Assembly (NCBI GenBank): GCA_016193485.1
Contig: JACPRZ010000043.1
Location: 160,944 to 224,943, forward strand
DNA from: Bacteroidota bacterium
GTDB taxonomy: Bacteria; Bacteroidota; Bacteroidia; JACPRZ01
DNA: 64,000 bases
Direction of reading: 5' to 3'
Below the pieces are notes generated by a model, which saw nothing but the letters and a program-made list of their open reading frames with translations, did no database searches and had not been told where the DNA came from. Numbering within the stretch: position 1 is the first letter of the stretch; each line of letters begins with the position of its first letter. The position numbers were made by a program, and so were the translations under genes. Shown piece after piece: positions 6,565-33,917 of the stretch.

Positions 6565-6597
6565 ATTGACTATTGTTGAATTTGGGGCTTTCGGTAG

Positions 6598-6680
6598 TGC
6601 GGATAGAGGGATTTCAACCCCCACGCCCTTGCAGGCGGTAGTTTCTAAGACGACTGTGTCTTGCGTTCCACCATATCCGC
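6598..6680 (-). tRNA. divergent tRNA-Leu(UAG)-like gene
   Basis: cloverleaf by eye: GCGGATA TG GTG GAACGCAAGA CAC A GTCGT CTTAGAA ACTAC CGCCTGCAAGGGCG T GGGGG TTGAAAT CCCTC TATCCGC A; one anticodon-stem mismatch, T-loop TTG instead of TTC. Confidence 0.6.
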
Positions 6681-6689
6681 AAATTTTTG

Positions 6690-6777
6690 CGGAGGCAGCA
6701 GGAATCCAACCTGCACGTCAGCGATAGCCGACTTCATGGTTTTCAGGACCAATAAGCGCTGTCAGTTGCGTGCCTCC
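6690..6777 (-). tRNA. divergent tRNA-Ser(UGA)-like gene, possibly a pseudogene
   Basis: perfect acceptor GGAGGCA/TGCCTCC, variable-arm stem GTCGGC-TATC-GCTGAC, T-stem GCAGG/CCTGC, anticodon loop CCTGAAA (C at position 33), D-arm lacks GG. Confidence 0.55.
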
Positions 6778-6781
6778 ATTG

Positions 6782-6870
6782 CGGAGAGTAATGGATTTGA
6801 ACCATTGCGCCAGTTGCTCGACCTAACGGTTTAGCAAACCGCCCCCTTAAACCGTAAGCGTAAGTACCCC
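6782..6870 (-). tRNA. degenerate tRNA-Ser(GCU)-like gene, probably a pseudogene
   Basis: anticodon arm CGGT-TTGCTAA-ACCG, T-arm AATGG-TTCAAAT-CCATT, 3' acceptor ACTCTCC; 5' acceptor strand (GGGGTAC) pairs poorly. Confidence 0.5.
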
Positions 6871-7128
6871 ATTTTTCCTACAGTGCTAAATTAGACATTT
6901 TCCTATTATTTCTTGCTTTCATAAATTCAGTCAGTACAACGGTATTCCTTTCCGCAGAAGCGGAATTTATCTTCTTCCCGGAAAAGTAACCGATACCGAT
7001 GGCTATCGGTATGGTTTTGTAACGCTTGAAGCTGAGAAGATGGCGATGCCGATAGCAATCGGTAGCCGGTGAGGGGGGGATCCGGGGAGCGGGTAATTCG
7101 TTACAACCGGGTTGCTTTCCTGTAATAA

Positions 7129-31132: not shown

Positions 31133-32116
31133 ATGAGTGAAACTTATTTAAATAAAATAATTAATGAAGACGCATTAAAAGCCCTGCCAACTCTTGCTGA
31201 GAATAGTATAGATTTAGTATTAACGGATCCTCCTTACTTTTTAGATAAAATGGATAACCGCTGGGATGAAAAGAAAGTAGCCAGCACAAAATATCATCAT
31301 GTTATTAAGTCATTGCCTGCAGGAATGAGGTTTGACAGGGAACAAGGGAAAAATTTTTACGACTGGTATTATAAAATTTCTAAAGAGATTTTACGGGTTT
31401 TGAAACCCGGTGGTTTTTTCTTCTCTTTTTCAAGTCCGAGATTATATCACCGGATGGTATCTGCAATGGATGATGCCGGATTTTTAATTAGAGATGGTTT
31501 TATTTGGCTTTATACGCAGAATCAGCCGAAGGCAATGAGTTTGAATCATTTTATTGACAGATTGAATGAAAATGAAAAAAGCAGAGACAATCTGAAAAAA
31601 CAGTTGCACGGGTGGAAGACCCCTCAAATAAAATCATGCTTTGAGCCGATTGTAATGGCGCAAAAAGAAGCAGAGGGGACTTTTCTGGAGAATTTCAGGA
31701 AATATAATGTCGGTTTATTGAATACTCATGTGAAGATCGGTAAGGAGATGTATCCATCTAATGTGATTTCAACAGATTCAATCAATGAGGTAGTTGACAA
31801 ATGTTTTTTAATCTCAAAACCTGATAAAAAGGAAAAAGGGGATTTTAATTTTCACAGGACCGTCAAACCATTAAGTTTATGCGAATATATCATCAGATTA
31901 ACGACTTATTCCAATGAAGCAATTGTTCTTGACCCTTTTGCCGGAAGTGGAACAACTCTCGTAGCGGCAAAAAATTTGGGTAGAAAATTTGTCGGCATTG
32001 ATATTAATAAAGAATATATTGAAATAGGAAGGAGAAGAATTAAATCCTTTGAAGCGGATTATTCCATAAATAATGGTGTACCGGAAAAAAAACAATTAAA
32101 GTTTTTATTATCATAA
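31133..32116 (+). CDS. DNA methyltransferase (N6-adenine/N4-cytosine type)
   Basis: '[11 protein letters not shown]' catalytic motif and '[30 protein letters not shown]' SAM-binding motif. Confidence 0.93.
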
Positions 32117-32132
32117 CTTAATTAACAATTTT

Positions 32133-33119
32133 ATGGCACAACTGGGTATTTTAGTGGCGATTGCGGTAGCAGCCCTGATAGGGCTCTGGATACTGCTTTA
32201 TTTTATCCCGATCGGCTTGTGGTTCACGGCTCTTTTATCGGGTGTTCGTATCTCTCTTATTCAACTGGTGCTGATGAGGTGGAGAAAAGTTCCGCCTTCC
32301 ACTATCGTAAACGGGCTGATTGCATCCACAAAGGCAGGTCTGAATCTTACGCGAAACGATCTGGAGGCGCACTATCTTGCCGGGGGTGATGTTCAGCAGG
32401 TGGTCAATGCGCTTATTTCAGCAGAAAAAGCGAATATTGAACTGAATTTTAAATCAGCATCCGCCATCAACCTTGCCGGAAGAAACGTGTATGATGCAGT
32501 GCAGATGTCGGTCATTCCGAAAGTACTCGATACCCCCCCCGTTGCCGCGGTGGCAAAAGACGGAATACAACTTATCGGAAAAGCCCGGGTTACGGTTCGT
32601 ACAAACATCAAACGGCTCGTTGGCGGTGCTGGTGAAGAAACAGTGCTGGCGAGGGTAGGGGAGGGCATTGTCAGCGCGATCGGATCGGCCAACTCGCATA
32701 AACATGTTCTTGAAAATCCCGATTCCATATCGAAACTCGTTCTTTCAAAAGGACTGGATTCGGGAACCGCATTTGAAATTCTTTCCATTGATATTGCCGA
32801 TGTGGATGTTGGGAAAAACATCGGTGCCATGCTGCAGATGGACCAGGCCAATGCCGATAAAAATATCGCCCAGGCAAAAGCCGAAGAGCGAAGGGCTATG
32901 GCGGTGGCCTACGAACAGGAGATGAAGGCAAAAGCGCAGGAAATGAGGGCTAAAGTAATTGAAGCCGAAGCCGAAGTACCCAAGGCAATGGCAGAAGCAT
33001 TCCGCAGCGGCAATCTCGGCATCATGGATTACTACCGCATGAAAAATATTGAAGCCGATACCGATATGCGGCAATCAATTTCCAAACCTGGCGGACAGAA
33101 ACCGAAAGAAGGAGGATAA
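32133..33119 (+). CDS. floA: flotillin-like protein FloA
   Basis: '[53 protein letters not shown]'; [13 protein letters not shown]-terminal region. Confidence 0.93.
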
Positions 33120-33128
33120 ATTACCAAA

Positions 33129-33917
33129 ATGAATGTTGATCTTTCCGGAAGGCACGCCCTTGTTTGCGGTAGTTCGCAGGGTATCGGCCGTGCTATTGCG
33201 ATAGAACTTGCTTCATTAGGAGCCTCAGTTACACTTGTTTCACGTAGTGAACAGGGGATGAATGAAGTGCTGGGAAAGTTAAAATCCAGTGATACCCAGA
33301 AGCATAGTATCCTGGTTTCAGATATGGGTAAACCTGCTGAAATAAAAGAAAAAATCCCTGCTTATTTAAGTAATAATCCACCGGTAAATATATTGGTTAA
33401 TAACACAAGCGGACCTCCTGCAGGCCAGGCAATCGATGCGACCACTGAAGAATACCTTGATGCATTCAACAAGCATATTATTTCAGGGCAAATTATTACA
33501 CAGGCATTGATTGAAGGTATGAAAAAAAGCGGTTATGGACGAATCATCAACATCATTTCCACTTCGGTAAAACAACCCATAAAAGACCTTGGTGTTTCCA
33601 ATACCATCCGCGCGGCAATGGCTAATTGGGCGAAAACCCTCTCTTTTGAATTGGGACAGTTTGGTATAACGGTTAACAACATTTTGCCCGGTGCCACCAA
33701 TACCAACCGGATGATTGAGATACTTGAACGGATTTCTAAAAAAACAGGTATTCCCTTTGAAAAAGTAAAGCATGATGCTACCCTTGAAATTCCGTTGGGC
33801 CGCTTTGCCGAACCGGAAGATATTGCAATGGCGGTTGCCTTTCTCGCCTCTCCTTCGGCTTCTTATATTTCCGGAATCAACCTGCCGGTTGACGGTGGCC
33901 GCCTGAAGACACTCTGA
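33129..33917 (+). CDS. SDR family oxidoreductase
   Basis: 'ALVCGSSQGIGRAIAIELASLGASVTLVSR', 'NILVNNTSGPP', C-terminal 'INLPVDGGRLKTL'. Confidence 0.93.
   Translation: MNVDLSGRHALVCGSSQGIGRAIAIELASLGASVTLVSRSEQGMNEVLGKLKSSDTQKHSILVSDMGKPAEIKEKIPAYLSNNPPVNILVNNTSGPPAGQAIDATTEEYLDAFNKHIISGQIITQALIEGMKKSGYGRIINIISTSVKQPIKDLGVSNTIRAAMANWAKTLSFELGQFGITVNNILPGATNTNRMIEILERISKKTGIPFEKVKHDATLEIPLGRFAEPEDIAMAVAFLASPSASYISGINLPVDGGRLKTL

Follow-up and report, generated by a model that had tools for sequence, protein, structure and literature searches.

A class II Leu/Ser tRNA-like triplet in a Bacteroidota chromosome carries an elbow swap matched in viral tRNAs and is probably a fragment of a phage tRNA array

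Three class II tRNA-like sequences lie side by side in a Bacteroidota chromosome, and in the Leu member the usual elbow pair G19–C56 is replaced by C19–G56. At the sensitivity used, this Leu swap was confined to viral contigs and the present array. The first-pass annotation of this DNA had proposed, among other readings, a tRNA relic of a phage or mobile element. This is the reading best supported by the present analysis, through the otherwise viral C19–G56, a gene order shared with one phage contig and a complete canonical host set, although phage genes are absent nearby. We consider it probable (roughly 0.64) that the triplet is a fragment of an accessory tRNA array of a large phage, or of a phage-like element, that was stranded in the chromosome and is decaying.

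The window, i.e. the whole 64,000-nucleotide stretch that was analysed, is part of a 292-kb contig (C40) in a 4.0-Mb assembly that is 92% complete; the genome encodes GldB, SprB and proteins with type IX secretion signals, fitting Bacteroidota. The triplet occupies positions 6597–6869, within about 275 nt, and reads Ser-GCU, Ser-UGA, Leu-UAG on the minus strand (Table 1). Searches with ARAGORN and Rfam bore out the first-pass claim of three class II tRNA-like sequences at this place. ARAGORN, which had been named as a check, found the Leu gene at default settings and Ser-GCU only at the 90% threshold (-ps90), and did not report Ser-UGA as such. The class II covariance-model test was passed by Leu alone (40.6 bits, cut-off 29), the lowest-scoring of the 40 tRNA matches in the genome. 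Both Ser genes scored 28.2 bits, Ser-UGA with the tRNA-Sec model, and are called tRNA-like only because they fall below the cut-offs (29 for tRNA, 47 for tRNA-Sec). When scaled to the whole 4-Mb genome, 28 bits correspond to an E value of about 3e-3, so a chance origin of the matches is unlikely. The fold z-scores were −3.2 for Leu, −3.1 for Ser-UGA and only −0.9 for Ser-GCU; the folds of Leu and Ser-UGA beat all 200 shuffles, and that of Ser-GCU was unremarkable.

Table 1. The tRNA-like genes, in minus-strand reading order, and the spacer upstream of them (window coordinates)
Feature	Start	End	Strand	Scores and remarks
tRNA-Ser(GCU)-like, class II	6782	6869	-	Rfam tRNA 28.2 bits (gathering 29), E 0.001
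tRNA-Ser(UGA)-like, class II	6689	6777	-	Rfam tRNA-Sec model 28.2 bits, E 0.002
tRNA-Leu(UAG), class II	6597	6680	-	ARAGORN default; Rfam 40.6 bits, above gathering
Spacer upstream of array	6870	7128		Inverted repeats 6994-7012/7046-7064 and terminator-like hairpins

By geometry count, the Leu gene pairs in 7/7 acceptor and 5/5 T-stem positions, and it retains the discriminator A73 and a long variable arm. Its D-loop, GAACGCAAGA, is aligned as G18–C19, and its T-loop, TTGAAAT, has G56. The T-loop and a single C–U mismatch in the anticodon stem had been noted correctly in the first-pass annotation, and C19, the partner of G56, had been overlooked; since this C19 compensates, the TTG of the T-loop is more than simple decay. 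In Ser-UGA, the acceptor is fully paired (7/7), the variable arm has 6 bp, and the deviations described earlier are all present, namely C33, G56 (T-loop TTGGATT) and an irregular D-arm without GG. The assignment of position 19 is uncertain in this gene, leaving a 19–56 swap ambiguous; the acceptor and T-stem count 7/5, neither 8/4 nor 9/3, by sequence and by fold, and the Ser discriminator G73 and the long arm are retained. Ser-GCU has good anticodon and T arms and a normal T-loop (TTCAAAT, with C56), its anticodon arm being almost identical to that of the host Ser-GCU; the weak pairing of its 5′ acceptor half was likewise seen rightly at first pass, as acceptor pairing is lost. Judged by bits, folds and the pairing of the acceptor, decay is uneven across the triplet. 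In the present host, folding and charging may persist for Leu and probably for Ser-UGA; Ser-GCU looks broken.

Canonical genes for Leu (CAA, UAA, CAG, UAG and GAG) and Ser (UGA, GCU, CGA and GGA) are present elsewhere in the genome, where they are spread over nine contigs and score 43.9–64.1 bits; the host tRNAs examined base by base were the class II ones. All three array anticodons are thus present canonically elsewhere, indicating that the trio is additional, and the comparison with host Leu and Ser genes proposed earlier shows that these are not sole copies. As in phage arrays, clustered tRNAs go beyond a complete host set here, for Leu and Ser. An encoded CCA is absent from the array, Leu included, which resembles the host class II tRNAs and differs from the phage relatives found.

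The G19–C56 elbow pair of tRNA is regarded as nearly universal. Decay and compensation were distinguished by scanning IMG/VR for tRNA-Leu with patterns for the four D-loop/T-loop combinations, matches being counted when at least 6/7 acceptor pairs and at least 4/5 T-stem pairs were present, with ARAGORN as a cross-check. The results showed at least 102 distinct genes with GG/TTC and, besides the window, three distinct viral genes on five contigs with the double swap GC/TTG; among these IMG/VR Leu genes, the single mutants GG/TTG and GC/TTC numbered zero, a well-paired GC/TTC match in L045 having GG in its D-loop and being rejected as a register artefact. A pattern scan for Ser-UGA in viral contigs gave two matches, neither of them a tRNA.

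Generality was assessed on 147 viral IMG/VR loci (within L020–L176), which together yielded 636 distinct tRNAs having a 7-nt T-loop. C56 was present in 621, and each of the other 15 (6 G, 6 U and 3 A) had a complementary base at position 19. GG was found in the D-loop of none of these 15; G followed by the complementary base was found in 14, and the fifteenth, a Thr gene of L040, has CC in its D-loop and likewise offers C19. The 15 include Leu, Thr, Arg, Gly, Cys, Ala-like and Lys genes, showing that the swap is not a class II property, and their frequency of about 2.4% is rough because Leu patterns were used to choose the loci and near-duplicate contigs are included. An isolated phage also provides a case, the tRNA-Ala of Pseudomonas phage REC having G18–A19 with U56. 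ARAGORN could be biased towards such pairs; the pattern-plus-geometry test is independent of it, and Infernal, which to our knowledge scores no tertiary pairs, likewise recovers several of the swapped viral genes. Eight of the same viral tRNAs carry G55, all with an AG D-loop, fitting A18–G19, and the pair 18–55 also appears to change jointly in viral tRNAs. The compensated 19–56 swap is a signature found in the present analysis rather than an established definition; within the array it is carried by Leu, is ambiguous in Ser-UGA and is absent from Ser-GCU.

The Leu swap pattern was also run against genome_contigs (85,462 prokaryote species), which possibly excludes records of the window's own genome, and gave four matches, none a real tRNA. 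A relaxed version of the pattern, applied to 395 same-class genomes, returned solely the present array and two non-tRNA matches, and the canonical pattern gave 67 matches in 149 of them. The scan pattern is narrow, covering only Leu genes with GTGGAA and leaving other bacterial swaps outside its scope.

A phage contig in IMG/VR (G060, locus L040) carries about 30 tRNAs, including a block on one strand of Ser-GCU, Ser-UGA, Tyr, Leu-UAA and Leu-UAG, in this order and spaced 1–6 nt apart. Its Leu-UAG has C19–G56, matching the array Leu, and its Ser-UGA has C33, like the array Ser-UGA, and is readable as U19–A56. L020 likewise has Leu, Tyr and Ser tRNAs in a block. Since class II genes do not generally cluster in viral arrays, the order shared with L040 is suggestive and not proof: over 126 viral arrays, class II genes were adjacent 32 times, against 32.4 after shuffling (p 0.62), and of the 79 arrays with at least three genes a single one was all class II. 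The Leu/Ser-only composition, called unusual in the first-pass annotation, is indeed so, but it does not represent a recurring kind of array, and a class-II-directed defence as its explanation was rejected on the same counts. The all-class-II array, L116, consists of Leu UAG, CAG and GAG. The swap-detected contigs L021, L022, L026 and L027 were considered as class II sets and rejected, having broad tRNA sets instead. Phage tRNAs with leucine anticodons in a class I frame (76–77 nt, without the long variable arm) were also seen; short-frame tRNAs with leucine anticodons lie at L020:6869-6941, L020:7181-7254, L042:5772-5848 and L189:3059-3135. When relatives, phages and plasmids were searched for DNA similarity, only single- or two-tRNA stretches of low identity were returned, and no phage was homologous at sequence level to the entire triplet.

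The array sits between two convergent genes. The product of one (972 aa) has a signal-peptide-like start, matches tail fibres weakly and is a putative surface protein with an endosialidase-chaperone-like end; that of the other (1480 aa) contains a choice-of-anchor Q domain, and the genes further out (TPR protein, radical SAM, dxs, NAD synthase) are chromosomal. The adjoining gene, named tail-fibre-like in the first-pass annotation, provides no evidence for a phage, given its signal-peptide-like start and chromosomal neighbours. No prophage or phage genes were seen around the array, which does not lie within a phage or prophage, and no integrase was found on C40, the genome's two tyrosine recombinases being on other contigs. 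Because of the chromosomal flanks and the missing integrase, the array is filed as a presumed fragment and not as a member of the phage accessory tRNA arrays. The upstream spacer contains, at 6994–7064, an inverted repeat of 19 nt (89%) in which hairpins are nested, and no convincing promoter for the array was seen in it. Elsewhere in the window, at 31133–33917 on the plus strand, a DNA methyltransferase (PF01555, type II MTase models) precedes two ORFs that have no match in PADLOC, a possible restriction-modification operon.

By analogy with known phage tRNAs, the Leu and Ser tRNAs of the source array would have supplemented or replaced those of the host in infected cells, either as translation support or as a means of outlasting host defences that cut tRNA. 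Within the phage, the 19–56 pair would have been recoded, here to C19–G56, with complementarity kept, and we infer that a piece of the array was then left between the two convergent surface-protein genes. Against an origin from a phage array stand the absence of a whole-triplet phage homologue, of an integrase on the contig, of surrounding phage genes and of an encoded CCA, together with the uncertain position 19 of Ser-UGA and the narrow genome-wide scan pattern; the Leu swap could also be an independent change in a duplicated tRNA of the host.

One alternative is that the host keeps the genes as functional accessory tRNAs, an escaped phage cassette that protects translation from tRNA-cutting toxins or defences. 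The perfect acceptors, discriminators and variable arms of Leu and Ser-UGA and the compensated Leu elbow agree with this, and defences cutting a long-variable-arm tRNA are known: tRNA-Tyr is cleaved within its variable loop by retron-Eco7 and Septu, an effect that phage tRNA-Tyr offsets (PMC11555353, PMC13096335). The genome also encodes two SLFN_AlbA_2 proteins, but a link to Schlafen-type nucleases was given no weight because this family is widespread. The broken Ser-GCU acceptor, the Leu anticodon-stem mismatch, the lack of a clear promoter and of conservation in relatives, and the unclustered class II tRNAs of viral arrays make host-kept accessory tRNAs unlikely. Local duplication of Leu and Ser tRNAs native to the host, followed by decay and without a phage, is less probable still. 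It would account for the near-host anticodon arm of Ser-GCU and the host-style absence of CCA, but the host genes on their nine contigs are distant in sequence (best match 76% over 66 nt), a complementary 19–56 double change is not expected of random decay, and this change was present in no other bacterial genome searched, either in the 85,462-species scan or in the 395 same-class genomes. Non-translational tRNA mimics, also raised at first pass, or allo-tRNA-like RNAs are very improbable: Ser-UGA fits the tRNA-Sec model best and irregular tRNA-like polycistrons have been described alongside allo-tRNAs (PMC7609411), but Ser-UGA is 7/5, the Leu and Ser-UGA acceptors are perfect, the anticodons are normal Ser and Leu ones, and the long arms and the discriminators A73 (Leu) and G73 (Ser), which suit LeuRS and SerRS, are kept.

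Of these results, elbow recoding in phage tRNAs most deserves following. No published report of it was found in the literature searched, and one may exist. A broader proposal, in our view unlikely, is that matched recoding of the elbow (19–56, also 18–55) is a general feature of phage tRNAs and evades elbow-reading host enzymes; the array would then be part of one such set kept in a bacterial chromosome. Evasion of an elbow-reading enzyme is hypothesized here; for anticodon-loop changes in phage tRNAs, evasion has been proposed (PMC10264068). Neutral compensatory drift under relaxed selection would yield an identical elbow pattern. The compensated swaps imply that viral tRNAs can leave G19–C56 yet stay paired, and the swapped phage tRNAs render the question of which host factors read the elbow directly testable. 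The swap also suggests a sequence mark for virus-derived tRNA genes in bacterial genomes.

Among known systems, the tRNA arrays of large phages (Pseudomonas phage REC, phage DSS3_MAL1 and the IMG/VR record G060) are likewise tight, on one strand and beyond a full host set, and some of their members have a recoded elbow (A19–U56 in REC Ala) and C33 variants, as in the present array; in contrast to them, the array has three genes, only Leu and Ser, and lies in a bacterial chromosome without phage genes. Allo-tRNAs and tRNA-Sec-like tRNAs (PMC7609411) resemble the array Ser-UGA in being of Ser type with a long variable arm, its tRNA-Sec match being weak, but the array has serine anticodons and the acceptor domain of Ser-UGA folds 7/5 instead of the 8/4 or 9/3 of allo-tRNAs. 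The ‘tRNA array units’ of Mycobacterium avium linear plasmids are, like the array, extra clustered tRNA variants in a bacterium, and differ in comprising 26–27 tRNAs for 19–20 amino acids and in lying on plasmids; such extra bacterial tRNA clusters are regarded as putative antidefense systems (PMC12803027).
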